A DNA stretch of 32,695 nt, taken from IMG/VR virus record IMGVR_UViG_3300041417_000036, positions 1 to 32,695 of that record; one strand, written 5' to 3'. This DNA comes from a virus. The notes below the pieces were generated by a model that saw only the letters and a program-made list of their open reading frames with translations, was not told the origin of the DNA and made no database searches. A program made the position numbers and the translations under genes. This document shows, piece after piece, positions 1,121 through 16,686 of the stretch. Each line of letters begins with the position of its first letter. Position 1 is the first letter of the stretch.

Positions 1121-2712
1121 AACTCTCCCCTTCTCACAGCATCGAGCAGCGCGCCCTGCAGCGACTCGTTCGCCCCAAGGCGCCGATAAATCTCACGCTC
1201 CAGCGGGTTGCTCACAATCTGTACCACGGTAACGGGGAACTTCTGCCCAGGTCGATGGGCACGCTTGTTCGCTTGCAGATATAGCTCAGTTCGATCGACG
1301 CATCCGTACCACACCACTGTGCGAGCCGCCCAAAGGTCCAGTCCGTGCGCCATTGTCCCGGGATCAGCAAGCAAAACTCGCGGCTCGGGCTCGCACTGGA
1401 AAGCCGAAAATATCCGGGAGCGATCCTTTTGCGAGACATTGCCGTTGACCACCGCGTGGCTGACATTCGTGAGTTTCTTGCTTATCATGTCTATGACGGA
1501 CGTCAAGGGGATGAAGACAAGAATCTTTCCGGGCGCCTCCTCAATCACGGCGCGCAGCTCGGCCAATCGCGGCTCTGCGTCCACCGCATGCCAGCTATGC
1601 GCCGCGTCGTAGACGGCGCCGAGGCTGATCTGCAGGAACTTGGTGCGCGCGGCCGCCTCGTTCGTCGCCGAGATCGGCTCGCCGGACTTGAGCACAATCT
1701 GCAGGTCCTGCTTCAAGGCGTGCATGAGCGCCTTCTGCTGCGCCGTGAGCGGCACCTCGCGCTGCTGCACAGTCAGCTCGGGGCCGTCCCACACGTCCTT
1801 GATGTCGAACCGGATCGAGGGCGTGAGCAGCCTGCGCGCCTTCTCGTAGCCGTCGCGCTGTGGCTTCCACTTGAAATTCGTTATCTTGATCATGGTGTTG
1901 TCGCGGAACGCGCCGAACGACAGGCCCTGCGCACCGTTCACCATCTTGGCGAGGCCGTAGGCGTCGGTCGGGGCGTTCGGGGTCGGCGTCCCGGTCATCA
2001 TCCACAGGTACGGACGGTCGCCGATCACGCGCTGCGCTACCTTCCACCGGCGAGTCTGTGAATCGCGGTAGGCGCTCGCCTCGTCGACGACGCAGATGCG
2101 AATGTCCTCGCGCTCGGCCAGCGCCTTGGAGAAGCCGTCGAGCTCCAGGCGCTTGCGGGTGTGCGCGCCGACGGTCACGCCGTCGTGGTTGACTATGTAC
2201 CAGTCGGCTGGGCGCGCGAGCGCGGCTATGCGCTTCTCGGCGCTGCCATGCAGGATCTCAATCTTCCGACTCGACAGGAACGTCTTGAAGATCGCGTCGG
2301 CCCACACGCGTTCCATGATGGACAGCGGGCAAACCACCAGCGCTCGCGTGCCGGGGGCAGCGCGCATCAGGAACTCGGCGGCCCAGATCGCGCTCATGGT
2401 CTTGCCCACACCCATGTCCGAGAGGTTGAAGCAACGCGGGTGCAGCACCATGAAGTTGGCGGCGAGCTTCTGCGTCTCGTAGGGGTGGTCGATATGAGGC
2501 GGGCGCGGCCAATCGAACGTCGTGTCGGTGACGACCGGCGCCACAGGCAGCCCCAGCCACCGCAACACCTGGCTGGTGCGGAGCGTGCGCGGCACGGCGA
2601 GCAGGGAGCCGTTGATGGGTCGCGCCTCGGGGATGTAGTGCTGGACGCGCAGCGCGGCGGGGCTCACGGGGTAGAGCAGGAGGTTGCGCGTCGTGTCGTG
2701 GTAGAAGGTCAA
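1117..2712 (-). CDS. SNF2-type superfamily 2 helicase
   Basis: A 531-residue ATP-dependent DNA translocase/helicase. Visible motifs: Walker A DMGVGKT (99-105), motif II VVDEAS (208-213, a DEAS variant of DEAH), motif III MMTGTPTPN (from 238), and C-terminal motifs V/VI in GLDLWAARTVVW and QANKRAHRPGQ (near 480-495), typical of SNF2 and phage SSL helicases. Phages often pair this enzyme with a VRR-NUC nuclease, as here: the nuclease lies immediately upstream. It probably acts in replication, recombination or fork restart. The start is TTG at 2712 (TTGA overlap with the nuclease stop); no in-frame ATG occurs before residue 88, so the rare start is probably genuine. Confidence 0.88.
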   Translation of the reverse strand: MTFYHDTTRNLLLYPVSPAALRVQHYIPEARPINGSLLAVPRTLRTSQVLRWLGLPVAPVVTDTTFDWPRPPHIDHPYETQKLAANFMVLHPRCFNLSDMGVGKTMSAIWAAEFLMRAAPGTRALVVCPLSIMERVWADAIFKTFLSSRKIEILHGSAEKRIAALARPADWYIVNHDGVTVGAHTRKRLELDGFSKALAEREDIRICVVDEASAYRDSQTRRWKVAQRVIGDRPYLWMMTGTPTPNAPTDAYGLAKMVNGAQGLSFGAFRDNTMIKITNFKWKPQRDGYEKARRLLTPSIRFDIKDVWDGPELTVQQREVPLTAQQKALMHALKQDLQIVLKSGEPISATNEAAARTKFLQISLGAVYDAAHSWHAVDAEPRLAELRAVIEEAPGKILVFIPLTSVIDMISKKLTNVSHAVVNGNVSQKDRSRIFSAFQCEPEPRVLLADPGTMAHGLDLWAARTVVWYGCVDRTELYLQANKRAHRPGQKFPVTVVQIVSNPLEREIYRRLGANESLQGALLDAVRRGEL

Positions 2713-3014
2713 ATGCGGCGTCCAGTCACAGCGATGAATTGACCTTCCACTGCACGCCGAATCTCCCCAATATTATCACCCCATGTGACGATTCCACCCG
2801 CCGCAATTATCGCCCTCATGCACGCCTCCTGCCGCGGCGTCGGCACCTTCCCCTCGGCCTTGGTCTCGATGCCAACGAACCGCCCGTTGATGCAGCACAG
2901 GAAGTCGAGCGTCTGCGCGCCGTAGCCGGCGGGCACGGGCATGTAGGTGTAGGCGTTGAGCGACTTGAGCCACGCCTTCACCTCGTCCTTGAGCTTTGAC
3001 TCGGGGCCTTTCAT
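2709..3014 (-). CDS. VRR-NUC domain nuclease
   Basis: A 101-residue PD-(D/E)XK nuclease of the VRR-NUC family. The catalytic core is D37 in QTLDFLCCINGRFVGIETK, followed by E50-x-K52, with PTPRQEACMRAI after it. Stand-alone phage VRR-NUC proteins are structure-selective nucleases and commonly accompany an SNF2/SSL helicase, as in this operon. The start at 3014 is preferred over an in-frame GTG at 3044: it has a GGAGGG Shine-Dalgarno about seven bases upstream and overlaps the preceding stop as ATGA. Confidence 0.85.
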   Translation of the reverse strand: MKGPESKLKDEVKAWLKSLNAYTYMPVPAGYGAQTLDFLCCINGRFVGIETKAEGKVPTPRQEACMRAIIAAGGIVTWGDNIGEIRRAVEGQFIAVTGRRI

Positions 3015-3130
3015 CTGCACACCCTCCAAATGCCCGGCAAGCACTTCGGGACGCGCATGTCGTGGGTGGACGCCACCAGGATGGTGGCGACGAGGGCGAC
3101 GGCGAGGAGGATTTCGCGGAGGGTTGTCAT
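3011..3130 (-). CDS. Tiny membrane/secreted peptide (39 aa)
   Basis: A 39-residue peptide starting MTTLREILLAVALVATILV, a charged N-terminus then about 15 hydrophobic residues, followed by a short basic tail with two cysteines. It could be a single membrane anchor or a signal peptide. It is linked by ATGA overlaps on both sides: to the 33-residue membrane ORF upstream and to the VRR-NUC start downstream. GGAAA lies about five bases before the ATG. A longer version starting at 3244 in the same frame is possible, but would run antiphase through the 33-residue ORF. Confidence 0.5.
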   Translation of the reverse strand: MTTLREILLAVALVATILVASTHDMRVPKCLPGIWRVCR

Positions 3131-3228
3131 CGGTTTTCCAAAATACTGCGAATCATCAAAACGATAAACGCAGCAACGAAAACCAGCACTGCTAACTGCT
3201 CTGGGCTTAAATGGGGACTTATATGCAT
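3127..3228 (-). CDS. Tiny transmembrane peptide (33 aa)
   Basis: A 33-codon frame: a polar start with HLSPEQ, then a hydrophobic run LAVLVFVAAFIVLMI (residues 12-26), then the basic end RSILENR. This is the layout of a single-pass membrane peptide. Its TGA overlaps the ATG of the next small membrane gene (ATGA). The Shine-Dalgarno is weak (GGAATGG at a long spacing). Function unknown; the tandem arrangement resembles paired lysis or exclusion peptides, but no family is recognised. Confidence 0.45.
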   Translation of the reverse strand: MHISPHLSPEQLAVLVFVAAFIVLMIRSILENR

Positions 3229-3245
3229 GAGTCCATTCCGTCATT

Positions 3246-3842
3246 TCAAGCCGCCAAACGGTAGATAAACCGATGTTTCGACACGCGCGCAATTCGCTTG
3301 ATCGTGACGCCTTCCGGCACATGCCCTCGTCGGCTGTACCGCTTGCCGGCGTCGGCGTCGGCGTAGTCGAAGCGTGGCGTCTTGCGCTCTTGGTCCGTGC
3401 GACCGTCCGCAATCCAGTTGGCGGCCTTGTAGATCGTGCCGCCATGGCCCGCCGAAGGATCAGCATAGGAAACCAGAACCCGAACCAGCGGGCAGTTCTG
3501 CCGGATGTATTTGACGGCCTTGGCGATCAACCAGGTTTCGGCGTTCTGCGGAACCGAATCGTCAAGCCAGAGCCGAGCAAGTTCCCATGTCTTCCCGCCG
3601 TATCGCTTCGAGGTTTCGCGCGGCGGCAACGCAAAGACCACGATGCCGATAAATTCGTTCCATGCGTCTTTCTTCCGCATTCCGAGGATCAGCGTACAGA
3701 CGCCGGGCCATTTGCCGATGTAATGGCGCTTAATCATCGCGTCGCCTTCGACGCGCCCGATGCGCTCAATCAGGCAGTCCGCCCGCCACGCCTTATCGAA
3801 TACCGGACAATCAGGCTTCACGTTTTGCCGCCTTCCGCGCAT
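3246..3842 (-). CDS. mom: Mom-like DNA modification protein
   Basis: A 198-residue protein resembling phage Mu Mom, the GNAT-fold enzyme that converts adenine in DNA to N6-(methylcarbamoyl)adenine and so blocks many restriction enzymes. Family signatures: HYIGKWPG (40-47), GIVVFALPP (66-74), ELARLWL (87-93), PQNAETWLI (98-106) and the characteristic SYADPSAGHGGTIYKAANW (125-143). The start at 3842 has a clear AAGGGG Shine-Dalgarno. No Com-like translational activator is seen beside it, unlike Mu, so control would differ. It sits alone between two nuclease genes of the replication operon with a 19-base gap upstream. The family call is strong; the exact base modification is inferred. Confidence 0.8.
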   Translation of the reverse strand: MRGRRQNVKPDCPVFDKAWRADCLIERIGRVEGDAMIKRHYIGKWPGVCTLILGMRKKDAWNEFIGIVVFALPPRETSKRYGGKTWELARLWLDDSVPQNAETWLIAKAVKYIRQNCPLVRVLVSYADPSAGHGGTIYKAANWIADGRTDQERKTPRFDYADADAGKRYSRRGHVPEGVTIKRIARVSKHRFIYRLAA

Positions 3843-3861
3843 ATAAGTCCCCTTAAATGCG

Positions 3862-4563
3862 TCATGCTCGCCTCCCGTTGTTCTCGCAAGACAGCACGTC
3901 GCAATGCTTCTGGCACAGCCCGCTGCGCCGCTTCTCCCACTCCCTCGCCGCCAGATCGCGCTCGATGTCGGCGGCGAGCGCGCGCACCTTGAGCAGCGTC
4001 GCCTTCACGTCCGACAGGTCGTAGGGGGCCGACAAGCCGGTCTCGTAGCAGTAGTGCCCGACGACCTTGCTGCGCATGCCCTCGTTGCACGCCAGCAACA
4101 GCGCGCCGATCTCCAGCTCGAACGGGTCCTCGTACTTGCTGCTGCCGGACTTCCAGTCGAGCAGGAAGGCATGGTTGTCGCTCAGCAGGGTCACGTCGAG
4201 CTTGCCGCGCAGCCACGCCGCGTCATCCCAGAAGTCGCACCCCGCCCCGCCGGCCGTGATGGCGAGGCGTTGCTCGACCTTGGGACGACGGCCGTCGAAC
4301 GGCGCCGCCCAGCGCTCCCACGCCGCCATGTCGTCGGGGAGAGGTTTACCCGCCGCCAGGCGGGCCTCGAGGGCGGCGTGCACGGCGTTGCCGCGCTTCA
4401 TCGCGTCGGTCTCGACGAAGGGTAGGGACTTGAGCACGTAGCGCTGCTGGAACTGCTCGGGGCACGTCTGGTAGCCCTTGAGGTTCGAGAAGGTGTAGAC
4501 AAGGCGCTTGCCCGCCTTTGGCGGGCGGCGGTCGAGGGCGGCGGGGATGTCGGGCATGGTCAT
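3862..4563 (-). CDS. Cas4-like PD-(D/E)XK exonuclease, probable Fe-S protein
   Basis: A 233-residue RecB/Cas4-type nuclease. Visible in order: FSNLKGYQTCPEQFQQRY (25-42), RGNAVHAALE (57-66, with the motif H62), LRGKLDVTLL (D123), and LLDWKSG with D136-x-K138 as the D/E-x-K pair. Cysteines at 34, 217, 221 and 226 form the one-plus-three pattern that holds a 4Fe-4S cluster in Cas4 and AddB. A role in end resection or recombination fits its place next to the DNA polymerase. The start is ATG at 4563, overlapping the stop of the 49-residue gene (ATGA), rather than a more distal in-frame start at 4599. A 17-base CCCGCC/GGCGGG palindrome lies in its coding region. Confidence 0.82.
   Translation of the reverse strand: MTMPDIPAALDRRPPKAGKRLVYTFSNLKGYQTCPEQFQQRYVLKSLPFVETDAMKRGNAVHAALEARLAAGKPLPDDMAAWERWAAPFDGRRPKVEQRLAITAGGAGCDFWDDAAWLRGKLDVTLLSDNHAFLLDWKSGSSKYEDPFELEIGALLLACNEGMRSKVVGHYCYETGLSAPYDLSDVKATLLKVRALAADIERDLAAREWEKRRSGLCQKHCDVLSCENNGRRA
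4510..4526. repeat. GCCCGCC-nnn-GGCGGGC palindrome, coding copy
   Basis: Perfect seven-base arms with loop TTT, inside the Cas4-like nuclease gene. It is one of at least eight related palindromes dispersed in the window (see 8032, 8085, 8119, 13614, 17659, 20656 and 21338). Confidence 0.6.
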
Positions 4564-4709
4564 TTGGGTACCACCATCTTGCACGCACACGGCCAGCACA
4601 TGATGACCGAGTAGGGGTTGCGGTAGCGATCGGCGAACATCCAGCCGAGCGCGAGGTAGGAAGGGACGAGGGCGTGGGGGACGTAGCGTAGGTATCGCTC
4701 ACTTCTCAT
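4560..4709 (-). CDS. Small phage protein (49 aa)
   Basis: A 49-codon frame between polymerase and nuclease. It begins inside the last codons of the polymerase gene (11-base overlap) and ends in an ATGA overlap with the nuclease start. The peptide is aromatic and basic (ERYLRYVPHALVPSYLALGW, then ADRYRNPYS) and ends with the cysteine-rich CWPCACKMVVPK. It contains C38, C41 and C43, which could bind a metal, or a weak amphipathic/membrane segment. No family is recognised. Coupling to both neighbours supports its reality. Confidence 0.6.
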   Translation of the reverse strand: MRSERYLRYVPHALVPSYLALGWMFADRYRNPYSVIMCWPCACKMVVPK

Positions 4710-6573
4710 AACAATCCCCCAACCCACCGTCACAATCCAGCGGGAGCCCGGGGAGCCACGCCACCTCGCGCGTCATCTCCCGCTTGCACGCTTCGAGCGT
4801 GCGCTCCGCGTCCGGCCCCTTGGGGATGAGCAGCAGCAGCTCATCGTAGGGATAGTTGAGCGTGCGGATGCCCATCTGCCTGATGCGCACCATCGCCTGG
4901 GTAACGATCACGCGGCTCACGGCCTCGCAGATGTTCTGCACGAGCTTCGAGCCCCACATCGCCTTCCACCCTTGGCGCACGCGCACCCGCCAGTAGCCGC
5001 CGCGCTCGTGCTCGCGACAGGGCTCGCCTTCCTCGGGGACGTGATACTCCAAGGTATCGTAGACGACGCAGCAGCCGTTGGGAAGGTAGAGGCGGTGGTC
5101 CTTGACGAGCAGCGGACCCCATTGCAGCGGCTCGCCGCCGGCTAGGCGCGCGATCATCTTGTTGGCCTGCGCCCAGTACCCGGTGCGCGGCGCGCATACC
5201 GACGGGGTATCCTCACGGTAGAGGCGCACGAACTCGGTCGCGTCCTCGATGCTCATGTCGACGGGCGGACCGTAGAGGCCGTTCTTGGCGGTCTTCTTGA
5301 ACTGCTTGGCGCCGGCGCCGTAGCCACACATGAGCCGGCCCTGCTTGCCCATGCCGCGCTTGGCCTCCATCTCGGCCTTACGAGGGTCGTCGGCTTTGGG
5401 CTTGTAGATCGGCTCGCCGTAGAACTTGGTGGCGATGTCGGCGTAAGGATCCTCGTGGTTGCGGAACTTCTGCAGCACGGGCTCGTCAGGGCCGCCCGCG
5501 AGGTAGTGAAGGACGCGGCACTCGATCTGAGCGGCATCGATCGGCGCCAGCCAATAGCCCTCGGGCGCGAGGAGCGCGCGGCGAATCGGGCTCTGCCGCT
5601 TCATGTTGAGGAAGTTCGTCTTGTCACCCCCCGAAGGTCGCAGCGTCCCGGCGCCCGAGTAGTTGAGATAGACGCACAACGGCCCCCTGCTCGCCATCCA
5701 CCCGAGCGTGGCGGCACGCGTCTGCATGATGGTGGACTTCTCGCCGAGCCGCGCCTCGGCCAGCGCGCGCACGCGATCGTCGGCGTCGTCGAGCAGGTCG
5801 CGCATGAAGTCGTCGGTCTTGGCGAACGCCGGGATCGGGCCGTTCTTGCCGGCCTTGTACTCGATCTCCACCCCCTCGGCCTCGAGGAGAGCAGCGAAGC
5901 GCTCGGCGCTCTGGAGCTCGGCGGGGTCGATGCCGAGATTGGCGGCTCGGGTGCTTTTAGCACCCTCCTCGGCCTCCCATATCTGGCGCAGCAGCGGGCG
6001 GTCGGCGCGCAGAACGGGCTCGGTGAACATCTTGAGGGTCTCGTCGAGGACGAAAAACTCCTCCGCAGGAAAATCCTTGGCGAACATGCCGAATAGCTTG
6101 TAGATGCTCTCCACCTCGTCGCAGCAGCCGTCGGCCACCTGTTGGCGCGTGTCGGCGCTCATCTCGTTCCAGCGCTTGCCGCGGAACAGGTTGTAGGGCG
6201 TGGTCTTGGGCGCGAGCCCGAAGTAACCGCGCACCTTGTCGAGCGCCGCGCTGCGCCACGTCCCGTGCAGCATGCGGAACATCGCCATCGGGCAGATGAG
6301 GAGCTTGGGGTGGACGTCGTAGTGGTGGGAGAGGATGAGCCCGTCGAATTGTGCGTGCCACATGACGAGCGCCACGTCACTCCAATCCTCCTGCGCCAGC
6401 ACCCACCGCAGTTGCGGCTCGTCGTACCAGCGCGCGTCGACGCTCGGGCTCCACTTGATCGCGGCGCCGTGGGCCTGGAAGCGCTCGTCCCTGATATAGT
6501 GCTCAGTGGAGAGTCGCGACAAGGTGTAGTCGTCAGCAAAGAACGTCTCGAAGTCGAGGACGACCAACCTCAC
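4699..6573 (-). CDS. DNA polymerase, family A (Pol I/T7-like)
   Basis: A 624-residue replicative polymerase with a 3'-5' exonuclease domain and palm/fingers. ExoI is LDFETFF (D7, E9); ExoII is WHAQFDGLIL (D77); an ExoIII-like DEVESIYKLF lies near 152. Motif A is APIDAAQIECR (catalytic D346), motif B is KQGRLMCGYGAG (from about 410), and motif C is YPYDELLLL (D577, E578). In motif C, tyrosine replaces the usual histidine of HDE. The start is set at GTG 6573, which overlaps the upstream stop as GTGA and puts the exonuclease motif directly at the N-terminus; a longer frame to 6615 would add 14 unrelated residues. It works with the primase-helicase encoded divergently. Confidence 0.92.
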   Translation of the reverse strand: MRLVVLDFETFFADDYTLSRLSTEHYIRDERFQAHGAAIKWSPSVDARWYDEPQLRWVLAQEDWSDVALVMWHAQFDGLILSHHYDVHPKLLICPMAMFRMLHGTWRSAALDKVRGYFGLAPKTTPYNLFRGKRWNEMSADTRQQVADGCCDEVESIYKLFGMFAKDFPAEEFFVLDETLKMFTEPVLRADRPLLRQIWEAEEGAKSTRAANLGIDPAELQSAERFAALLEAEGVEIEYKAGKNGPIPAFAKTDDFMRDLLDDADDRVRALAEARLGEKSTIMQTRAATLGWMASRGPLCVYLNYSGAGTLRPSGGDKTNFLNMKRQSPIRRALLAPEGYWLAPIDAAQIECRVLHYLAGGPDEPVLQKFRNHEDPYADIATKFYGEPIYKPKADDPRKAEMEAKRGMGKQGRLMCGYGAGAKQFKKTAKNGLYGPPVDMSIEDATEFVRLYREDTPSVCAPRTGYWAQANKMIARLAGGEPLQWGPLLVKDHRLYLPNGCCVVYDTLEYHVPEEGEPCREHERGGYWRVRVRQGWKAMWGSKLVQNICEAVSRVIVTQAMVRIRQMGIRTLNYPYDELLLLIPKGPDAERTLEACKREMTREVAWLPGLPLDCDGGLGDCYEK

Positions 6574-6899
6574 GCCAGCCTCCCGATCCGATAGACCTTC
6601 CCACGCCCCGTCCACTCGCGGGTGACGGTCAACCCCAAGTGCACGATCGTCTTGCTCAGGCGGAACACCATGATGGGGATGATATACGGTCCCTTGAGCG
6701 GTCCGCCGGTCGGGTCATCGCGATAGAGCAGATCAAACAATTCGTCGCACGAATGCCCATCGCCGAGCAGCAAGTGGCAGAGAAGCTCGAACCTGATGTT
6801 GCGCGTGCGCCGCCCCTTGCTCATGAAGGTGTGACGGCGCACGCCGACATGCAGGATGTGACGTTGGCGGTCGAGACGCATGTTGCCATGACGAATCAC
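6570..6899 (-). CDS. Small winged-helix-like protein (109 aa)
   Basis: GTG at 6899 overlaps the HTH gene stop as GTGA; the stop overlaps the polymerase start. The C-terminal 75 residues match a plus-strand protein at 17009-17242 over its whole length: helix, then GHSCDELFDLLYRDDPTGGP against GLTCHELANLVYTDADGGP, then a second helix ending in LG, then a short beta pair before the end. This looks like a small winged-helix DNA-binding fold, but it is not a family I can name. The N-terminal 30 residues are basic. A regulatory or replication-accessory role is inferred from shape and neighbours. Confidence 0.6.
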   Translation of the reverse strand: MIRHGNMRLDRQRHILHVGVRRHTFMSKGRRTRNIRFELLCHLLLGDGHSCDELFDLLYRDDPTGGPLKGPYIIPIMVFRLSKTIVHLGLTVTREWTGRGKVYRIGRLA

Positions 6900-7150
6900 G
6901 ACTTTACCTCCCACTTGAACCCCTTCCCACTTCTCAGCATCGCGTCGACCGCCGCGCAGCTCGTCTTGTACCTGAGCCACGCCCACGGCGCGATGCGCGC
7001 GTCGCCCGCGTACCGTGCTGCGTTGGGGCGCTTGCCGCTCTCCATCCAGCACACCGCCTCGCGCGAGTAGCCCATGAGCTCGCCCAGCTCCTCCTGGGTG
7101 AGGCCCCACGACTCGCGCCAGGCGCGTGCCTGCTCGTATTCAGTGGGCAT
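6896..7150 (-). CDS. Helix-turn-helix (XRE-like) protein (84 aa)
   Basis: An 84-residue protein with an HTH near residues 10-45: RAWRESWGLTQEELGELMGY, then SREAVCWMESGKRPN, the Cro/CI pattern of a helix ending in GLTQEELG followed by a recognition helix. The C-terminus (IAPWAWLRYKTSCAAVDAML) resembles small phage XRE-type proteins encoded beside DNA polymerase. The ATG at 7150 has GGAGG eight bases upstream. It is probably a regulator of this operon. Its target is unknown. Confidence 0.75.
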   Translation of the reverse strand: MPTEYEQARAWRESWGLTQEELGELMGYSREAVCWMESGKRPNAARYAGDARIAPWAWLRYKTSCAAVDAMLRSGKGFKWEVKS

Positions 7151-7180
7151 TCGCGGCGCCTCCAGGTGGTGCGTCGAATG

Positions 7181-7810
7181 TCACGACACCCACCCCCTCA
7201 GCTTGGCGATCGCCTCGGCGTAGTCGAGCGCGGCGAGCACCTCGCGCCTGTTACCCTTGCCGGCCCAGTACGCGCGCCCTTCGGCCAGCGTCTTGTCCCG
7301 ACAGCCGACACGCACGCGCTGCTCGCCGGTCTCGAGGACGTAGGTGAGGGCGCACCAGCCGTTGGGATCGCCGAGTTGGAACAGGCCCTTGATCTTCCCA
7401 GTGCCCAGGTCCGCGCCGCGCAGGTCCGCGCCGCGCAGGTCCGCGCCGCGCAGGTCCGCGCCGCTCAGGTACGCGCCGCGCAGGTCCGCGCCGCGCAGGT
7501 CCGCGCCGCTCAGGTACGCGCCGCCCAGGTTCGCGGCGCTCAGGTACGCGCTGCGCAGGTACGCGCTGCGCAGGTCCGCGCTGCGCAGGTCCGCGCTGCG
7601 CAGGTCCGCGCCGCGCAGGTCCGCGCCGCTCAGGTACGCGCCGCTCAGGTCCGCGCTGCGCAGGTCCGCGCCGCTCAGGTACGCGCCGGATCCGACAGCC
7701 CAGCGCACAGCGAGGCCGCGCTTCGTTGCCTCGCTTGCGTCGTCGGCGCAATCGATGTCGGCGGTGAACTGCGTTTCGCCGCTGAAACGGTTCGTCACGT
7801 CGTATTTCAT
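7181..7810 (-). CDS. Pentapeptide-repeat protein (209 aa)
   Basis: Residues 42-141 are 20 consecutive pentapeptides of the form (G/S/A)-A-(D/Y/N)-L-(R/S/G), predicted to form a right-handed quadrilateral beta helix. Pentapeptide proteins such as Qnr and MfpA mimic B-form DNA and bind topoisomerases, but many have unknown roles. The flanking N-terminal 41 and C-terminal 68 residues are not recognised; the latter contains NGWCALTYVLETGEQRVRVG. ATG at 7810 has a strong AGGAGG Shine-Dalgarno. It is the first gene of the leftward operon, with a GC hairpin in its leader (7837-7856). Confidence 0.88.
   Translation of the reverse strand: MKYDVTNRFSGETQFTADIDCADDASEATKRGLAVRWAVGSGAYLSGADLRSADLSGAYLSGADLRGADLRSADLRSADLRSAYLRSAYLSAANLGGAYLSGADLRGADLRGAYLSGADLRGADLRGADLRGADLGTGKIKGLFQLGDPNGWCALTYVLETGEQRVRVGCRDKTLAEGRAYWAGKGNRREVLAALDYAEAIAKLRGWVS
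7388..7687 (-). repeat. 15-bp tandem repeat, 20 units, coding for pentapeptides
   Basis: Twenty near-identical 15-base units (on the plus strand like CAGGTCCGCGCCGCG), each encoding one pentapeptide. DNA identity is higher than the protein fold requires, with the same codons reused, which indicates recent expansion by slippage or unequal exchange. Copy number may vary among relatives. Confidence 0.9.
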
Positions 7811-7836
7811 GGCATCCCTCCTGTTGCGATGCGAAC

Positions 7837-7856
7837 GCCCCGGCTTTCACCGGGGC
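7837..7856. other. GC hairpin in the leader of the leftward operon
   Basis: GCCCCGG, loop CTTTCA, CCGGGGC: a perfect seven-base stem located 27-46 bases upstream of the pentapeptide gene. It has no T-tract in the leftward direction, so it is more likely a leader structure than a terminator. Confidence 0.5.
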
Positions 7857-7914
7857 AGCCTCGCATGTTCGCCTCCATCACCGTGTATGCAACAGCATAA
7901 CTCACAGTATGTAA

Positions 7915-7943
7915 ACGCTACATCACCCGTCAGGCACTGTCAA
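7915..7943 (-). promoter_or_regulatory. Possible leftward promoter of the replication operon
   Basis: On the minus strand TTGACA (7943-7938) is followed after 17 bases by TAGCGT (7920-7915). The -35 is perfect and the -10 poor (three of six), so activation or a different exact site is possible. It would transcribe the pentapeptide gene and everything to its left, for which no better promoter was seen in the interval. Confidence 0.35.
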
Positions 7944-7972
7944 GCGCATGGCAGGTATGCAGTAATTGCATA
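7928..7972. repeat. 45-bp palindromic element, intergenic copy
   Basis: The 36 bases 7937-7972 match 11836-11871 with one mismatch, and similarity extends to a shared CGTCA nine bases upstream. The element holds an inverted repeat (GTATGCA...TGCATA). On the minus strand it carries CGCTTGACA, a consensus -35. Seventeen bases further left on that strand is TAGCGT (7920-7915), a weak -10. This copy may therefore supply the promoter and operator for the leftward operon. The second copy interrupts a gene. Confidence 0.75.
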
Positions 7973-7988
7973 GGTGGGGAGGAAAAGG

Positions 7989-8174
7989 GAGCCCGCCGGG
8001 TGGAGCGGGCTCGAAGTCTTGGGAGGAAACACGCCCGCCAGAGGCGGGCGAGGAGAGCGTTGCACGTGCGGGTGGTGGGGTCAAGCCCGCCGCGAGGCGG
8101 GTCAAGGGGCTTGCCTTGCCCGCCGGGAGGCGGGAAGAATGCGAAACCCCGCCCGGGATGCCAGCCGGGCGGGG
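7989..8174. other. Array of five GC-rich hairpins between divergent operons
   Basis: Five perfect inverted repeats follow one another: 7989-8012 (GAGCCCGC arms, loop 8), 8032-8050 (CGCCCGCC, loop 3), 8085-8101 (core CCCGCC, loop 4), 8119-8134 (CCCGCC, loop 4) and 8147-8174 (CCCCGCCCGG, ten-base arms, loop 8). None is followed by a T-run. The stretch lies upstream of the primase-helicase gene; short frames through it are arginine/proline-rich and not convincing. It could be a structured leader RNA, a protein-binding site or a replication element. Confidence 0.7.
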
Positions 8175-8248
8175 CGCAACAGAGGGGTGCCTGACCAGGG
8201 CAGCCCCTAGGTAACACGGCCCGCCAGCCGCAACAAGGGGCTTCCCCC

Positions 8249-10483
8249 ATGCTTCCTCCCCAGATCGAGCGATATCTCGCCGCTGGCTGGCGCGTCCTGC
8301 CGCTGCACGCGCCCGGCGCGCCGTGGTGGAAAACCGACATCGAGGAGGACCAGATCGGCAAGCGGCCGTGCGTGTCGCGCGGCGCCGACCCGCTGTGGGG
8401 CTCGAGCAATCGCGACGAGGCGATTCGCTGGGCGCGGCGGTGGCCGGGGTGCAACTGGGGGCTCGGCACCGGCGCCGGCCTCGTGGTGCTCGACCTCGAC
8501 AGCGCCGAGCAATGGGCACAGTTGCGCGAGTTGACGCTGCGCAACGCGCCGCTCCCACCCACCGCGATCGCGGGCACCGGGCGCAACCCGCTCGCCGCTC
8601 ACATCTACTTCGCAGGGGACCTCGACCGCTCGCCGCACCTGGGCGACATCCTGGTGCGCGGTGCGCGCAGCTACGTGGTGGCGCCACCAAGCATCCACAG
8701 AACCGAACAACCCTATAGGTGGCTTACCAATTTCCCGGTCGCGCCGCTCCCAGACTGGCTCAAGTCCTGCATCGAAACGTATGAAAAGCCTACCAAAACC
8801 GTCGCACTCCCACCTCCACCCGATTATATCATACGGCGCCAGCAGCTTAGCGGTGCACCCTCGCTCCTCGCGCGCGAGATCGCGTGGACACAGAGCCCGC
8901 GCACCCCCGAGCTGGAGGCGGAAATCAAGAGCGCGCTGCAAGCCATCCCACCATCGATCAAAATGCTGCCGTGGCTCGGCGTCGGTATGGCGCTCCACTC
9001 GCTCGGGTGGGGCGACGACCCGTTCGCTTGGTGGGTGGCGTGGTCGCGGTCGTGCGAGGAGAAATTCAGCGAGGCACGCTGTGAGAGCGCGTGGCGCAGC
9101 TTCGGCCGACGGACCAAGGGAGCCATCGGAATCGGGACGCTCTGGTTCCTCGCGACACGTCACGGGTGGGTGCGGCCCAACGCCGCACTCGGCGCCGCGG
9201 CCACGCCCGCCAGCGCGCGGATCAACGGCCACCACACCCCAACCCTGCTCCCGCCGGCGACCGCGCTCGAGGCGATCGAGTTCGACGTCAACAAGCGCGG
9301 GGTGCTGCCGACGTGCGTCAACGCGCGCCGCGCGTTGCGCAAGCTCGAGATCGCGTGCCGCTACGACACGTTCCACGAGCGCCTGCACGTCGGCGGGCGG
9401 GTGCTAGGGCAGTGGGCGGGTGAGCTCAGCGACCACGCCGACCATATGCTACGGGTGATAATCCAAGAAAAGTTCGGTTTCGACCCCGGTATGCAAAACA
9501 TCCACGATGCGGCGGTGGAGGAGTGCCTTTTATCGCCGTTCGATCCCGTGGTGGATTATCTCGCGCGCGTGGAGGGCGCGTGGGACGGGCGGGCGAGGCT
9601 CGGCGGGTGGCTCCACGCCTATCTCGGATCGCCCGGGGATGGCCTCACGGGCGCGTTCGGGAGGCTCACGGTGCTGGCGGCGGTGCGGCGGGCGCGGAGG
9701 CCCGGGTGGAAGCACGACGCGATCCTGGTGCTCGAGGGACCGGAGGGACGCGGCAAGTCTGCGGCGATCGAGATGCTCGCGGGCGCGGACAATTTTTCCG
9801 ACCAAGCGATATTGCTGGCCGACGACCGCCACCAGCAGGAGCTGATCCAGGGAGTGTGGCTTTACGAGATCGCCGAACTCGTCGGCAAGTCGGCGGCCGA
9901 CATCGAGCGCGTGAAGGCGTTCGCGTCGCGCACCGTGGACCGGACCAGGCCGGCTTACGGGCGGTGCCGGGTGGACCGGCCGCGGCGGTGCGTGTTCGTC
10001 GCTACCACCAACAACGAGACGGGCACGTACCTGCGCGCGGAGGGCAACAGGCGGTTCTGGCCCGTGCCATGCGGTCGCATCGATCTGGAACGCCTCGCGC
10101 GCGATAGAGACCAGATATGGGGCGAGGCGGCAGCGCTGGAGGCGCGCGGCGCGACCACCACCCTTGATCCGACGCTGTGGGCGGCGGCGGGCGCGATGCA
10201 AGCGAGCAGGCGCGAGGCGGATCCCTGGGACGACCTGCTTGAAGTGCTCGACCTCAAGGGCACGCAGGGGGTGACGATCGCGCCAAGCGGCGATGGTCGA
10301 GGGCATGAACGACGCGTCAGCACCGGGGACATCTGGACGCTGCGGCTGCAGCTGGACCCCGGGCGCCTCACAACCGCAACATCGAAGCGCCTAGCGAGCG
10401 CGATGAAGCGACTCGGTTGGGACGGTCCAAAAAAGATACGCGGGCTGCTCGGCACGTATCGGGGGTATTCCAAACCGATCTGA
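8249..10483 (+). CDS. Primase-polymerase / VirE-type helicase
   Basis: A 744-residue replication protein. Residues 1-160 are a bifunctional primase-polymerase (Prim-Pol) domain: GWRVLPLH (13-20), WGLGTGAGLVVLDLDS with catalytic D82-x-D84, H118, and SYVVAPPSIH (141-150). A linker domain follows. From about 290 comes a VirE/D5-like superfamily 3 ATPase with Walker A LEGPEGRGKS (495-504), Walker B GVWLYEIAEL and a sensor-like CVFVATTNN. Such fusions prime and unwind at the origin. The ATG has AGGGG about nine bases upstream. It is the first rightward gene and is followed immediately by the iteron-rich candidate origin, a common arrangement. Confidence 0.9.
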   Translation: MLPPQIERYLAAGWRVLPLHAPGAPWWKTDIEEDQIGKRPCVSRGADPLWGSSNRDEAIRWARRWPGCNWGLGTGAGLVVLDLDSAEQWAQLRELTLRNAPLPPTAIAGTGRNPLAAHIYFAGDLDRSPHLGDILVRGARSYVVAPPSIHRTEQPYRWLTNFPVAPLPDWLKSCIETYEKPTKTVALPPPPDYIIRRQQLSGAPSLLAREIAWTQSPRTPELEAEIKSALQAIPPSIKMLPWLGVGMALHSLGWGDDPFAWWVAWSRSCEEKFSEARCESAWRSFGRRTKGAIGIGTLWFLATRHGWVRPNAALGAAATPASARINGHHTPTLLPPATALEAIEFDVNKRGVLPTCVNARRALRKLEIACRYDTFHERLHVGGRVLGQWAGELSDHADHMLRVIIQEKFGFDPGMQNIHDAAVEECLLSPFDPVVDYLARVEGAWDGRARLGGWLHAYLGSPGDGLTGAFGRLTVLAAVRRARRPGWKHDAILVLEGPEGRGKSAAIEMLAGADNFSDQAILLADDRHQQELIQGVWLYEIAELVGKSAADIERVKAFASRTVDRTRPAYGRCRVDRPRRCVFVATTNNETGTYLRAEGNRRFWPVPCGRIDLERLARDRDQIWGEAAALEARGATTTLDPTLWAAAGAMQASRREADPWDDLLEVLDLKGTQGVTIAPSGDGRGHERRVSTGDIWTLRLQLDPGRLTTATSKRLASAMKRLGWDGPKKIRGLLGTYRGYSKPI

Positions 10484-10484
10484 T

Positions 10485-10769
10485 GTTCCAGTGTGTTCCG
10501 CTACGCGCGAGCTAGTGGAACGTTGGAAGCCCTTGATAATGCAGGTATGTTCCACTTGTTCCTTTAGTTCCTTTTTATCTATAGAGGGGTATAGTAATAA
10601 GAGGATGTGGACATGTATACGTTACATACGTATGGTATGTGTAGTATATATACTATTCCCTACCCCTCATAGGAGATGGGGGGTAAAAGAGGCACTAATG
10701 GAACAAATGTGCGATTTCAATGGGTTATAGTGGAACATGGGGGGTGCCACAAGCGGAACCGAGTGGAAC
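10485..10769. other. Candidate replication origin with iterons
   Basis: Ten copies of GTTCC/GGAAC occur in 285 bases: 10485, 10495, 10517(-), 10549, 10558, 10567, then 10700(-), 10732(-), 10755(-) and 10765(-). Seen in one orientation the longer consensus is about TGTTCCACT. The left group mostly points right and the right group points left, flanking an AT-rich centre (10572-10690) with TATAC, ACGTAT and TATATATA stretches in an otherwise GC-rich genome. It directly follows the primase-helicase gene. A 79-codon frame through it has no matching composition or recognisable product. Confidence 0.6.
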
Positions 10770-10780
10770 ACAAAAGGCGC

Positions 10781-10810
10781 TTGACAACCCCTAAGTGGAG
10801 TGCCTACATT
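10781..10810 (+). promoter_or_regulatory. Early promoter TTGACA-N18-TACATT
   Basis: A perfect -35 (10781-10786) and TACATT -10 (10805-10810) with 18-base spacing, directly right of the candidate origin and ahead of the 10918 gene. Two more promoters of the same form lie at 12460 and 13630. Confidence 0.65.
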
Positions 10811-10917
10811 GCGTGAGCCCGCCAGACTACGCGCGAATCCAGCCGGCGCACCGCAAGGCGTTCGATGCGGCGCTGCGGCGCCAGAACAATCCTGGTGCGG
10901 CGTGACAGAGGCGGTAA

Positions 10918-11328
10918 ATGGAGGGGAACGTGAAACGCAAAGCTTTTAAGTCGATTACTCGCTCGGAATTGGCGGAAACAACGCGCAAGCGCAATGCTTG
11001 GCATGCGGTGAACAGTGCGGACCAGCCGAAGTTCTCTCAAAAGCCGGGGAGCGTTTTCGAGAACGAGCCGGAGCGAAGGTCGCGGATGAAAGCGAATCGC
11101 GCGTCGCGCGCGATCGTGCTCTATGCGGCCGAGCTCGGGCGCAAGCGTGGCGTCCTGCCCTACGATCTCAGCGCGTGGGAAGCCTCGCACAACTTCGATT
11201 ATTCGGGCTTCGACGCGCCGCAAGCGTCGGTCCTGGTGGTGTTTCGTGACGGCGTGTCCGAGGTGCCGATCCGCGTCGAGAACCTGGATTGGCAGCCAGC
11301 CGAGCCCGTCGAGGAGTGCGTCGAGTGA
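10918..11328 (+). CDS. Hypothetical early protein (136 aa)
   Basis: Not recognised. The first 55 residues are basic and polar (KRKAFKSITRSELAETTRKR) and look disordered or DNA-binding. The remainder is a mixed alpha/beta domain (IVLYAAELGRKRGVLPYDLS, later VLVVFRDGVSEVPIRVEN). ATG at 10918 has GAGG upstream; GTG at 10930 after GGAGGGG is an equally good start and would remove four residues. It is the first gene after the early promoter at 10781. Its TGA overlaps the next start as GTGA. Confidence 0.6.
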   Translation: MEGNVKRKAFKSITRSELAETTRKRNAWHAVNSADQPKFSQKPGSVFENEPERRSRMKANRASRAIVLYAAELGRKRGVLPYDLSAWEASHNFDYSGFDAPQASVLVVFRDGVSEVPIRVENLDWQPAEPVEECVE

Positions 11329-11474
11329 CTCGCACCCTACGCCTGATCCTGCTCGGCGCCGCATGGCTCGTGGTGCCCGGCAGCTCGCTCCTGCTCCTGC
11401 CCTACCTCGCATGGCGCTTGACACGGCGCGCTAAGAGGTGTAGGGATTGCATATCGATAACGAGAGGGGAATGA
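11325..11474 (+). CDS. Small membrane protein (49 aa)
   Basis: GTG at 11325 overlaps the preceding stop as GTGA. The 49-residue product is basic at the start (TRTLR), has hydrophobic residues 6-30 (LILLGAAWLVVPGSSLLLLP), and ends in a basic tail with CRDC, consistent with one membrane pass. It overlaps the region just before the next gene, whose ATG comes one base after this stop. A consensus TTGACA (11418-11423) lies in its coding sequence and may feed the next gene. Function unknown. Confidence 0.6.
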   Translation: MTRTLRLILLGAAWLVVPGSSLLLLPYLAWRLTRRAKRCRDCISITRGE

Positions 11475-11475
11475 C

Positions 11476-11970
11476 ATGAGGTACGATTGTCTTGCGGCTT
11501 TGGGTCGATTGGGGATCGCCCAGGACGACGCGGCGGCGCTGCGGCGCATTTCGATGACGCTGCATCGCTGGCACGAGCTCGAATGCGGCGACGGCAATGC
11601 GCACGGCTCCTGGGCGATCGTGCGCGGCCGCAAGGATTCGAAGGGGCGTTTCGTCCACGATGACGACGGGCGGCCCTACCTCGAGCACCATCACTATCGG
11701 CACGGCGCTGGCGAGGATACCGTCAGCCATGCGCTGCTTCCCGATCGCGAGCGGGGTGCGTTGAAGCGTCTTGCGCGGATCATGGATCGTTACGCGCCGC
11801 TGAGCTTCTACGTTCAGGGCGACAGTCGTCATGTGCTGTCAAGCGCATGGCAGGTATGCAGGAATTGCATACCGCGCGGTGCGGCGCTCTACGTGCTGCG
11901 GCCCGGTGACGTGCCCGCCGGCGAGGATCCGAGCTGCTACTACTCGCGCGGCATTGCGGTGTACCGATGA
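11476..11970 (+). CDS. Conserved phage protein (164 aa) with an in-frame repeat insertion
   Basis: It resembles a widespread phage protein of unknown function with the signatures LRRISMTLHRWHELECGDGN, then GRPYLEHHHY, PDRERGALKRLARIMDRY and RGAALYVLRPGDVPAGE. From memory of the family, YVQ-x-D-PRGAALY is normally continuous. Here 16 residues (117-132, SRHVLSSAWQVCRNCI), encoded by 11824-11871, separate D116 from P133. That segment is the second copy of the 45-bp palindromic element seen at 7928. The frame is kept, so the protein may still be made. GAGAGGGGA serves as Shine-Dalgarno. Confidence 0.7.
   Translation: MRYDCLAALGRLGIAQDDAAALRRISMTLHRWHELECGDGNAHGSWAIVRGRKDSKGRFVHDDDGRPYLEHHHYRHGAGEDTVSHALLPDRERGALKRLARIMDRYAPLSFYVQGDSRHVLSSAWQVCRNCIPRGAALYVLRPGDVPAGEDPSCYYSRGIAVYR
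11827..11871. repeat. 45-bp palindromic element, copy inside a gene
   Basis: Matches 7928-7972 (36 of the 45 bases contiguous with one mismatch). Contains the perfect inverted repeat GTATGCA-N5-TGCATAC when the following base is included. Its right end coincides with the point where the interrupted protein family sequence resumes. Confidence 0.75.
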
Positions 11971-12065
11971 CCAGGATCATCCTCTACCGCGCCGCGTTCG
12001 CGTGCGCCGGCCTCATGGGCACGTACTGGCTCCTCGTCGGCATCTTCGTGTGGCTGACGTGGTGA
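11967..12065 (+). CDS. Tiny transmembrane peptide (32 aa)
   Basis: A 32-codon frame with ATGA overlap to the preceding gene and GTGA overlap to the next. After MTRIILYR it is hydrophobic to the end (FACAGLMGTYWLLVGIFVWL), a single membrane segment. Double coupling argues that it is translated. Function unknown. Confidence 0.55.
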   Translation: MTRIILYRAAFACAGLMGTYWLLVGIFVWLTW

Positions 12066-12274
12066 CGCTGCGGATCTTCGTGGGTCGCGCCGAGCTGTAC
12101 CGGCGCGACACCACGCTCGAGGGCCTGTCGGCGTCGATCGACGCGCTGGCGAGCTCCATGCGCGCGTTAGCGGGCCGCCAGTGCGTCGTAGCGGTCGCGA
12201 CCGCCGGGAACCTGTCCCAGGTCCTGGGACGCATCAGCGGGCAGAAAAACGGGGTTGGCGATGGCATGGCGTGA
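12062..12274 (+). CDS. Hypothetical small protein (70 aa)
   Basis: GTG at 12062 overlaps the preceding stop (GTGA). The product begins with a beta-like TLRIFVGRAELYRRDT, then a helix GLSASIDALASSMRALAG, then CVVAVATAGN and a polar tail. Not recognised. The same frame is open further upstream but overlaps two well-supported genes there. Confidence 0.5.
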   Translation: MTLRIFVGRAELYRRDTTLEGLSASIDALASSMRALAGRQCVVAVATAGNLSQVLGRISGQKNGVGDGMA

Positions 12275-12479
12275 CCAGCTGCGGACGAAGCGCGTCGCGC
12301 GCGGGGCGGAAGCAATCGCAACGCGCGCCGGCTTGGTCGACGCGCCGTGGGCGCGCAAGAACGTGCACGCGTGGCAAGCCGTCATGTGCGGAGCGCTCGC
12401 GAGGCGTAGCGAGGGCGTGCAACGCTATTTGCGCATGCGTGCTATGCGTGGGGCGCATGTTGACATGGGGCGAGTGTAG
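12261..12479 (+). CDS. Hypothetical basic protein (72 aa)
   Basis: Begins MAWRDQLRTKRVARG and is rich in Arg and Ala throughout. It overlaps the preceding gene by 14 bases and has only a weak GGGG Shine-Dalgarno. The early promoter at 12460 starts inside its last codons. Arginine-rich composition is also what a GC-rich shadow frame gives, so confidence is modest. Confidence 0.4.
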   Translation: MAWRDQLRTKRVARGAEAIATRAGLVDAPWARKNVHAWQAVMCGALARRSEGVQRYLRMRAMRGAHVDMGRV

Positions 12480-12489
12480 GGGTTACATT
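12460..12489 (+). promoter_or_regulatory. Early promoter TTGACA-N18-TACATT
   Basis: TTGACA at 12460-12465, TACATT at 12484-12489, spacing 18. It is followed by a short leader with AGGAG before the ATG at 12525. Same form as those at 10781 and 13630. Confidence 0.7.
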
Positions 12490-12524
12490 TAGAGCGTAGC
12501 AACGCAAACCATAGGAGCCGTGAC

Positions 12525-12860
12525 ATGGCTTGGTCCTGGTCGCACTCGCCGGAAGCTTACAGCGACGCTTATGATAATCTGCACGATCAGCCGCACGCTT
12601 GGCTCGCCGAATGTCTCGCCGAGTGGCAAGCGTCGAAGCCCGGGCAGTATGGACAACGCCACTTGCGCCTCGCGCGCTGGGAAAAGAATCTCGCGTGGTG
12701 CACGCAACAGTCGGCGGACGTGCTCGCCGATATGATCTGGGAGAAAATGTCCGAGCAGCAGACGTGCGACAACGGCGGGTTTAACGCGTGGGCGTGCCCG
12801 TTCGGCTGCCACAAAGTCTCGTTTTCGTGCTCGGAAGTCGAGGGGGCGTACCGACAATGA
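12525..12860 (+). CDS. Conserved hypothetical phage protein (111 aa)
   Basis: Starts MAWSWSHSPEAYSDAYDNLH, an opening seen in small early phage proteins of unknown role. It is helical, with many Trp and Gln residues in the first 75, and has five cysteines in total, three of them close together in NAWACPFGCHKVSFSC near the end, which might bind a metal. AGGAG lies eight bases before ATG. It has its own early promoter and is coupled to the next gene by ATGA. Confidence 0.65.
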   Translation: MAWSWSHSPEAYSDAYDNLHDQPHAWLAECLAEWQASKPGQYGQRHLRLARWEKNLAWCTQQSADVLADMIWEKMSEQQTCDNGGFNAWACPFGCHKVSFSCSEVEGAYRQ

Positions 12861-13228
12861 ATCGGATCCACCCGCAACGGGACTATGAGCAAGCGCTAGC
12901 CGTTCAGGCGCAATTGGAGTCCGCGGTGTCCCGTGCCAGCGCCGCACTGGCAATCTTTCCGCGACTCCCCAACGGCTTGACTCCGGACCATGTCAAGGCG
13001 AGTCCGGAATATCGGGCGGCAAAACTGCAGTACGATACCGCTTTCGGCAAGCTCCGGACGTTCAACGCGTCGTTTGTGAAAAGCTTTAGGGCCGAATTGC
13101 GCCGAGACCGGACCATGAAACGGCTTGCAGCGGCGCGGAATAACCCGAATCATCCCTATGGCGTCCTATGTCGGGTGGTATCGCAAGGGACTCCGATTGC
13201 TGGCATACCGGAAACCGAAACCGAATAG
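12857..13228 (+). CDS. Hypothetical protein (123 aa)
   Basis: ATG at 12857 overlaps the preceding TGA (ATGA). An alpha-helical, probably coiled-coil protein (YEQALAVQAQLESAVSRASA, later SPEYRAAKLQYDTAFGKLR), basic in its second half (FRAELRRDRTMKRLAAARNN). Not recognised. An in-frame extension upstream to 12788 would run antiphase through the previous gene. Confidence 0.6.
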   Translation: MNRIHPQRDYEQALAVQAQLESAVSRASAALAIFPRLPNGLTPDHVKASPEYRAAKLQYDTAFGKLRTFNASFVKSFRAELRRDRTMKRLAAARNNPNHPYGVLCRVVSQGTPIAGIPETETE

Positions 13229-13241
13229 GGAGTCAACGGCC

Positions 13242-13444
13242 ATGCGCAATAGCGATTTTGTGGATTTCGGCGCAGTACATTCCGCCGCCACCACGCACGC
13301 AAACCGGGTGACTCGCTCACCCGGGATCTTTTCGGCGATTCGTTCTCCGAGACCGGCGGATTCCTGTCATCCGGAGCGGCCGAGCAAGCCAAGGCGCGAG
13401 GCGTGGAACAATCGGCCGAGCTCGCGCCACGTGTTTCAAGGTGA
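13242..13444 (+). pseudogene. Possible frameshifted small gene
   Basis: ATG at 13242, with GGGAG upstream, opens MRNSDFVDFGAVHSAATTH. That frame soon becomes arginine-rich, like a shadow. From about 13307 another frame (-1) looks coding: GDSLTRDLFGDSFSETGGFL, continuing to a TGA at 13442-13444 that overlaps the GTG of the next gene. The second frame has no ATG, GTG or TTG start after its upstream stop at 13250-13252. The simplest reading is one gene of about 65 codons broken by a frameshift, or a programmed -1 shift; no classic slippery heptamer is visible. Confidence 0.35.
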
Positions 13445-13614
13445 CATTCCAGAACGGCTCAGAGTTCGGCGAGACGTGCGAGCGTTGCGGCTCGCACTAC
13501 AACACGCGGGTAGGCGGCACCGCCGCTGTCTACTGCTACCCGACGAGTGCATGGCGCGCGGCGCATCCCGAGGACGACGGACTGCTCGGCGAGTCGCGCA
13601 CCGTTTTCGGTTGA
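13441..13614 (+). CDS. Small CxxC protein (57 aa)
   Basis: GTG at 13441 overlaps the stop of the frame before it (GTGA). The 57-residue product has CERCGSHYNT (C13, C16) and C32, a partial zinc-ribbon pattern, then an acidic tail. It was chosen over the overlapping longer frame because its codons are typical of this genome, whereas the other frame is arginine-rich. No family recognised. Confidence 0.5.
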   Translation: MTFQNGSEFGETCERCGSHYNTRVGGTAAVYCYPTSAWRAAHPEDDGLLGESRTVFG

Positions 13615-13630
13615 CCCGCCTGCGGCGGGT
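13614..13630. repeat. ACCCGCC-nnn-GGCGGGT palindrome
   Basis: Perfect seven-base arms, loop TGC, between the CxxC gene stop and the next promoter; its last base is the first T of TTGACA. A member of the dispersed palindrome family. It may terminate or insulate but has no T-run. Confidence 0.6.
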
Positions 13631-13659
13631 TGACAACGCCTAAATGAAGGCGTTACATT
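13630..13659 (+). promoter_or_regulatory. Early promoter TTGACA-N18-TACATT
   Basis: TTGACA at 13630-13635 and TACATT at 13654-13659, spacing 18. The spacer shares ACNCCTAANTGNAG with the promoter at 10781. It drives the 13692 gene. Confidence 0.7.
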
Positions 13660-13691
13660 TGGGGCGTTGAGAGCAAACAAGGGGAAGTGAC

Positions 13692-14147
13692 ATGAAATAC
13701 GCATCGCTTGGTTCGATCAGCTCGGGAACGTTGCGAACCGAGGACTTGCTGGTCGCGTTCGCGGATGAACTTGAGCATCACGTGCAGCGCAACGCCGAGG
13801 AGTGGTGTTCCCGACGTGGGCGCAAGCGGCGCGACGAGTTGCTGGCGCTCGTTACCGAAACCCGCGATGGCAGCATCGAAGACGAAGGCGATTTGGCCGA
13901 CGCCGTGCTCGAGGAGTTGCAGGACGCACTCGGCGAGTTCGCACCGCCCTATACGTATTTCGGCGCTCATGAAGGTGACGGCGCGGATTTCGGTTACTGG
14001 CCGGCGTGGGATGCGATTGAGGAGCTGCCGCAAGTCGAGGATGGCGACGAAGCGAAGGCACTCGGCGAGGATTGCCGATTCGTGAACGATCATGGCAACG
14101 TGACGATTTACGGTGGTGACGGCTCGGTCATTTGGGCTTGCGTCTGA
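13692..14147 (+). CDS. Conserved hypothetical phage protein (151 aa)
   Basis: Begins MKYASLGSISSGTLRTEDLL, an opening I associate with a small early phage protein family of unknown function. Very acidic overall (many Glu and Asp), with a helical first half (ADELEHHVQRNAEEW) and a C-terminal CRFVNDHGNVTIYGGDGSV that looks like a beta hairpin. Strong AAGGGGAA Shine-Dalgarno. Transcribed from its own promoter at 13630. Confidence 0.7.
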   Translation: MKYASLGSISSGTLRTEDLLVAFADELEHHVQRNAEEWCSRRGRKRRDELLALVTETRDGSIEDEGDLADAVLEELQDALGEFAPPYTYFGAHEGDGADFGYWPAWDAIEELPQVEDGDEAKALGEDCRFVNDHGNVTIYGGDGSVIWACV

Positions 14148-14165
14148 AGCAGAGGAACGACTGAC

Positions 14166-14363
14166 ATGACCCCGGAAATCCTCGCCGAACTGTCCCGTAT
14201 CCGCAAGGCTATGGTCGCCGCCCTCCGCGAAAAGCCGAAGAACATCGCCCTGTACCATCGACTCGCGGATCAGCACCGCTGCACCCTGCACGCAGCCAAC
14301 CCCGCGATGAAAGCGGCATGGGAAGGCTGCCACATGCAGACCTATGGCAAGGTGCCGGGGTGA
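14166..14363 (+). CDS. Hypothetical small helical protein (65 aa)
   Basis: A 65-residue basic helical protein (LAELSRIRKAMVAALREKPK). It is not recognised. AGAGGAA lies ahead of ATG. It follows the 13692 gene after 18 bases and is the last gene before the strong terminator at 14377. Confidence 0.6.
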   Translation: MTPEILAELSRIRKAMVAALREKPKNIALYHRLADQHRCTLHAANPAMKAAWEGCHMQTYGKVPG

Positions 14364-14376
14364 TCGAGCCAACTTG

Positions 14377-14407
14377 AACCGGCCCTAACGGGGCCGGTTT
14401 TTCTTTG
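14377..14407 (+). terminator. Strong intrinsic terminator
   Basis: AACCGGCCC, loop TAACG, GGGCCGGTT: a perfect nine-base stem followed by TTTTTCTTT. It ends the early transcript 13 bases after the 14166 gene. Confidence 0.92.
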
Positions 14408-14524
14408 TAACAATTCGTGATTATACAATTGCCAAATGTAGGCGCTTCATATCATCACAATCTGATCTGGGAATGTCTCAAGACGAGGCCGGGATATTAC
14501 CGGCGAGCAGACAAGGGGAAAGCC

Positions 14525-14725
14525 ATGCACGTCTCACAACTCACTATCACGTCTCGCAAGCTGGTCGACGGCCGCTACGTCGGGGACCTGCAAAACCAAG
14601 CGGGGCGCACGCTGCACTACGTCGAAAGCGATTGTCACACTGGCGTAGTCGCCGAGATGTTCAAGCAATACATCTTGACCACGCTTCGCGGCAAGCGCGT
14701 TCACGTCGAAACGGAGATTGCTTGA
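14525..14725 (+). CDS. Hypothetical small protein (66 aa)
   Basis: The start at 14525 has AAGGGG eight bases upstream; the same frame is open further up to 14417 but without a ribosome site. Beta-rich opening (VSQLTITSRKLVDGRYVGDL), then a helix (VVAEMFKQYILTTLRGK). Not recognised. Its stop overlaps the next start (TGATG). Confidence 0.6.
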   Translation: MHVSQLTITSRKLVDGRYVGDLQNQAGRTLHYVESDCHTGVVAEMFKQYILTTLRGKRVHVETEIA

Positions 14726-15712: not shown

Positions 15713-15719
15713 CGACTAC

Positions 15720-16661: not shown

Positions 16662-16686
16662 CGCCCCCACCCTGATGCGCTACAAC
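16658..16686 (+). promoter_or_regulatory. Promoter TTGACG-N17-TACAAC
   Basis: The -35 (16658-16663) overlaps the methyltransferase stop; the -10 is at 16681-16686. It is followed by a leader with AGAGGAG before ATG 16714. Confidence 0.6.

Follow-up and report, generated by a model that had tools for sequence, protein, structure and literature searches.

A short palindromic element of an uncultivated phage is present in two places, once in a control region between two operons and once in frame inside a conserved protein gene. We put at about 0.5 the probability that a promoter/operator-type module was copied a single time into the gene starting at 11476, where it was tolerated because it lies in frame at a turn. 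The event gives the impression of control DNA that strayed once and turned into protein sequence, not of a spreading family of selfish elements. The window, i.e. the whole stretch of DNA analysed, comprises 32,695 nt (IMG/VR virus record IMGVR_UViG_3300041417_000036, positions 1 to 32,695). A repeat search of the window identified 7928-7972 and 11827-11871 as direct repeats with 41 of 45 bases identical. Their core (7937-7972 and 11836-11871) consists of 36 bases with one mismatch, in agreement with the original prediction, and both copies contain the exact 26-mer CTGTCAAGCGCATGGCAGGTATGCAG. Its chance origin is negligible (order of 1e-7, roughly estimated by dividing some 1e9 position pairs by 4^26). 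With the pentapeptide-repeat gene excluded, the pair of 45-base copies is the longest dispersed (non-tandem) repeat of the window together with a further 20 kb of this virus, and the copy number is two in about 54 kb. A second contig, IMGVR_UViG_3300017946_000042, overlaps the window at 10748-32695 and is at least 99.99% identical to it, so that it represents the same virus; it contains the gene copy with the insert and no further copy.

The recipient gene (11476-11970, plus strand) encodes a phage protein of 164 amino acids to which no function is assigned and which belongs to a WHELECGD...QGDPRG family with 32 homologous viral loci. This protein had no match in Pfam, PHROGs or INPHARED and no usable Foldseek match against the PDB. 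The homologue set consists of 31 IMG/VR loci besides the virus itself (L004-L034, 37-58% identical to the 11476 protein) and locus L107, and includes some near-identical pairs. In the alignment of these homologues, residues 117-132 (SRHVLSSAWQVCRNCI) are absent from 32/32 loci. They are encoded by 48 nt on the plus strand (11824-11871), of which 11827-11871 are the second copy of the element, and the only other sequence carrying them is the second contig of the same virus. It had been proposed from the sequence of the window that this segment adds 16 residues to a conserved phage protein before PRG resumes, and that it is palindromic DNA lying in frame inside the gene, with an alignment of homologues as the check on whether they lack residues 117-132; the alignment and the empty site described below bear this out. 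QGD (or QTD) runs directly into PRG in all homologues but that of L009 (5001-5453), which lacks about four residues of DPRG owing to a small deletion exactly at the insertion site. This turn therefore seems to be a place where insertions and deletions arise readily.

The empty site GGCGAC/CCGCGCGG in L010 matches the flanks in the window base for base, and the insertion can thus be delimited to 48 nt at the codon boundary GAC/CCG, without target duplication. Of the inserted nucleotides 45/48 match the intergenic copy, whereas the first three (AGT) do not. In the predicted structure of the L010 homologue the insertion site is a two-residue beta-turn joining strands 102-108 and 111-117. The AlphaFold model of the window protein has pLDDT values below 50 for residues 119-133, and the 16-residue insert is probably a disordered loop. 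The insert has a GC content of 50%, compared with 67% in the remainder of the gene, and its codons (among them AGT, TCA, GTA, AGG and ATA) are seldom used by the phage, placing it among the lowest 0.4% of 16-codon windows. Both features are expected of former non-coding DNA. We infer that the protein still works with the insert.

The intergenic copy (7928-7972, minus strand), delineated by the repeat search, a CGCTTGACA scan and dyad scans, lies in a divergent control region between a leftward replication operon and a rightward primase operon. The leftward operon encodes the pentapeptide protein, an HTH protein (6896-7150, minus strand) and the DNA polymerase. Read on the minus strand, the element has the order TATGCAATTACTGCATA - CCTGCCATG - CGCTTGACAG: a 17-bp dyad, TATGCA-N5-TGCATA, lies upstream of the -35 context CGCTTGACA (7946-7938 in the intergenic copy) and is followed by a 24-bp imperfect dyad centred on the -35 box (CGCTTGACAG). 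The control region has a dyad beside a -35-like box, as a promoter/operator feature. CGCTTGACA occurs four times in the window at a chance expectation of about 0.25, namely in both copies and at 10778 and 11415 on the plus strand, upstream of genes 10918 and 11476. The intergenic copy is located 12 bases upstream of a putative leftward promoter, TTTACA-N18-TGCATA (7915-7886, minus strand), recognized from the sequence and from the control regions of relatives; the same layout, TTTACA-N18-TRCATT, is seen in L005, L007 and L019. The relative G007 (L090/L091, about 1465-18370) carries six 17-bp dyads of its own, AGCTAC-N5-GTAGCT, three of them perfect and three with one substitution. Five adjoin CTTGACAG boxes and, judging from simple ORF calls, are sited where genes start. 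The G007 and window dyads have the same 6-5-6 geometry beside a -35 box with a different half-site, as would be expected if they were operators of repressors that diverge between phages, and those of G007 form a putative dispersed operator-like system that is worth its own study. These features suggest a regulatory role of the intergenic copy. The outward TTGACA that had been ascribed to this copy is indeed present but is not unique to it, since the minus strand of both copies carries the hexamer. The best -10 candidate following it in the intergenic copy is weak (TAGCGT at 17 nt, 3/6), no -10 hexamer is found at 16-18 nt in the gene copy, and a consensus promoter scan did not report the minus-strand TTGACA site. 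The plus strand of the element was also considered as the primase promoter; this was dropped, as comparison with L011 places that promoter nearer 8108.

Several other features of the window were recorded along with the control region. It is adjoined by about 18 tandem 15-bp repeats (7402-7685) within the gene of the pentapeptide-repeat protein (7181-7810, minus strand). Rightward promoter-like sites of the form TTGACA-N18-TACATT, matching the consensus at 10/12 positions, precede small genes at 10781-10810, 12460-12489 and 13630-13659. The dyad CCCGCC-N3-GGCGGG, possibly a dispersed terminator or hairpin family, is present seven times in the window and its extension (among others at 4511, 8034, 13615, 17660, 20656 and 21338), and the one at 13615 directly adjoins the -35 box belonging to the promoter at 13630. 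The phage further encodes a DNA-modification protein matching the Pfam Mom family (3246-3842, minus strand; 8.5e-30) together with a DNA methyltransferase (15663-16661).

In both copies the element comprises two hairpins. In the gene copy, hairpin 1 (11828-11851) is GTCATGTGCT-GTCA-AGCGCATGGC with 10/10 pairs, two of them G-U, and hairpin 2 (11853-11873) is GGTATGCA-GGAAT-TGCATACC with 8/8 pairs, its last two bases being part of the gene's own CCG codon; the two are separated by one base. The intergenic copy has an imperfect hairpin 1 (7929-7952; 8/10 pairs, 7 of them Watson-Crick), and its hairpin 2 is the 17-bp dyad (7956-7972; 6 pairs), which is fully kept in the gene copy and lengthened there to 8 pairs. 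The description of the element as palindromic was therefore correct but understated. As RNA, the gene copy has a predicted fold energy of -26.6 kcal/mol (z = -5.7), and none of 609 50-nt stretches with a GC content of at most 0.56, taken on a 10-nt grid from the plus strand of the window, folds as well. That the hairpins are more perfect in the gene copy is the opposite of the simple decay predicted for a copied, unselected insert. A more perfect dyad could be the ancestor of both copies, in which case the gene copy would not be a simply decayed descendant of the present intergenic copy.

Based on these observations we propose to regard the element as a small phage module of promoter/operator type, built from the 17-bp dyad and the imperfect dyad on the -35 box. 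Its original copy would be the one between the replication and primase operons, and the direction of copying would be from the control region to the gene. The second copy would have been pasted once into the gene at 11476 without target duplication, most likely via template switching during replication or via repair synthesis, helped by the two hairpins. With 48 nt, i.e. 16 codons free of stops, landing on a two-residue beta-turn, the insert would have survived and would now be translated as a probably disordered loop. Some observations do not fit this explanation readily. The AGT at the left junction is not accounted for, and there is no clear microhomology at the insertion junctions. Since D, P, R and G of the DPRG motif are near-invariant across the family, splitting the motif could harm the protein. 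The dyad TATGCA-N5-TGCATA is absent from the control regions of relatives, which also counts against a copied module, and it was not found in loci retrieved through the polymerase. Together with a control region in the window that is longer than those of relatives, this absence raises the possibility that the intergenic copy, too, was inserted.

The element was searched for with exact and degenerate patterns covering its left arm, middle and right arm. In IMG/VR these recovered this virus only, apart from chance-level matches, and in INPHARED phages the element was not found beyond chance. Matches in plasmids had E values of at least 3 and are noise, and Rfam returned no match. A single hit in GTDB genomes (L081), which appears to lie inside coding sequence, and a match in L080 were dismissed as chance. 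The motif GGTATGCANNNATTGCATA is present in 43 IMG/VR stretches, which is near chance for 16 fixed bases in AT-rich contigs, and the flanks are unrelated. In two of these stretches the match is somewhat longer: the unrelated AT-rich viral contigs L074 (about 2480-2530) and L078 (about 3180-3230) contain TTGCATGACAGGTATGCAGT-ATTGCATA, which comes close to the element's core, slightly above chance by a rough estimate (roughly 0.1 expected). The similarity is suggestive. A 15-base match is present in the relative G013. The sites attC, dif and protelomerase sites were also considered for the element and dropped, as they do not appear to resemble it in sequence. The original prediction had named failure to find the element elsewhere as an argument against its proposal; two copies in one virus lineage with chance-level matches in databases are a half-way outcome in this respect.

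These searches bear on a different reading, according to which the element is a mobile double hairpin, a non-autonomous stem-loop that inserts at new sites in the manner suggested for the double-hairpin elements of mitochondria and for MITEs, and both copies are insertions. The adjacent, near-perfect hairpins with their strong fold, the clean insertion at the turn, the expanded control region and the L074 and L078 pattern all agree with it. However, only two copies exist in one lineage, a target-site duplication is absent, the matches in IMG/VR, GTDB, INPHARED and plasmids are at chance level, and no comparable dispersed double-hairpin repeat was found in eight relatives examined. This mobile reading fits the anatomy as well as a copied module does and is the main alternative; we consider it rather unlikely and the copied module the best-supported explanation.

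Selection might instead have kept the gene copy because it serves regulation from inside the gene, as a further operator of a putative phage repressor or as a roadblock, much like the dispersed sites of other phages. Its dyad and -35 context are the same as in the intergenic copy, and the 17-bp dyad is wholly retained and even extended. Moreover, the relative G007 spreads its own dyad over six sites. On the other hand, simple ORF calls place the CTGTCAAG-linked dyads of G007 at gene starts and not inside genes, and the gene copy has no -10 box while its -35 points against the gene. An intragenic operator appears less probable still than a mobile element. More doubtful again is the broader idea of a minimal phage-borne cassette, a mobile double hairpin with promoter/operator function that inserts in frame at protein turns and converts regulatory DNA into new peptide segments.

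A programmed bypass or RNA-level skipping of the 48 nt, by which the residues would never be made, is very improbable. The gap of T4 gene 60 (50 nt, out of frame, with matched GGA codons and a stop after the take-off site, and bypassed; PMC5009743) is likewise a hairpin-bearing insertion of about 50 nt inside a phage gene, but the insert described here is in frame and open, its take-off codon GAC does not match the codon before resumption (ATA), and Rfam contains nothing similar; a T4-type bypass was rejected for the unmatched codons and the missing in-frame stop. An assembly or sequencing artefact is just as remote, for although the same reads could underlie the window and the second contig, the two contigs agree across the gene at 6220/6220 bases, the gene sequence is continuous on both flanks and four bases distinguish the two copies of the element.

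If a control module was indeed copied, it offers a clean example of regulatory, apparently non-coding DNA that has entered a conserved phage protein, and for this one event we can see the other copy and the insertion as well as the exact empty site and where it lies in the structure. Being one event in a single virus lineage, it is a curiosity and does not make a new class. Further cases, if found, would make it possible to measure how control DNA rich in hairpins gives rise to new segments of proteins.

The original prediction had likened the element to Rickettsia palindromic elements, which are about 150 bp long, occur in multi-copy genomic families and code for a conserved peptide (PMC10969869). 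The likeness holds for palindromic DNA that keeps the reading frame of a protein gene and sits where the protein tolerates it, but kinship is not supported: 45 bp are shared and 48 bp inserted, and there are two copies in a single virus lineage without a family, so that an RPE-like family was rejected on copy number and length. The element also differs from a MITE in that no target duplication is found at GGCGAC/CCGCGCGG and in that its inverted repeats are two internal hairpins, not one pair at the ends. PeSL cassettes are small phage cassettes that combine a promoter with a stem-loop, are linked to gene shuffling and are sited between genes. The element resembles them as a small phage cassette pairing a promoter-like site with a stem-loop, but one of its copies is inside a gene and it has no terminator U-tract. 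PeSL stands for promoter early stem-loop, and such cassettes of T4-type phages are cited in PMC4503421. Stoperators of cluster A mycobacteriophages are 13-bp asymmetric repressor sites with many copies per genome (PMC6550527, PMC9283540). Like the element, which is putatively regulatory, they are short and recur within a single phage genome, although here two sites and a 17-bp symmetric dyad are involved. Mitochondrial double-hairpin elements lie between genes and occasionally inside genes without causing a frameshift (PMC2800124). They are repeated within the genome and belong to another genetic system, and the likeness, two adjacent hairpins within a few tens of bases, is one of anatomy.
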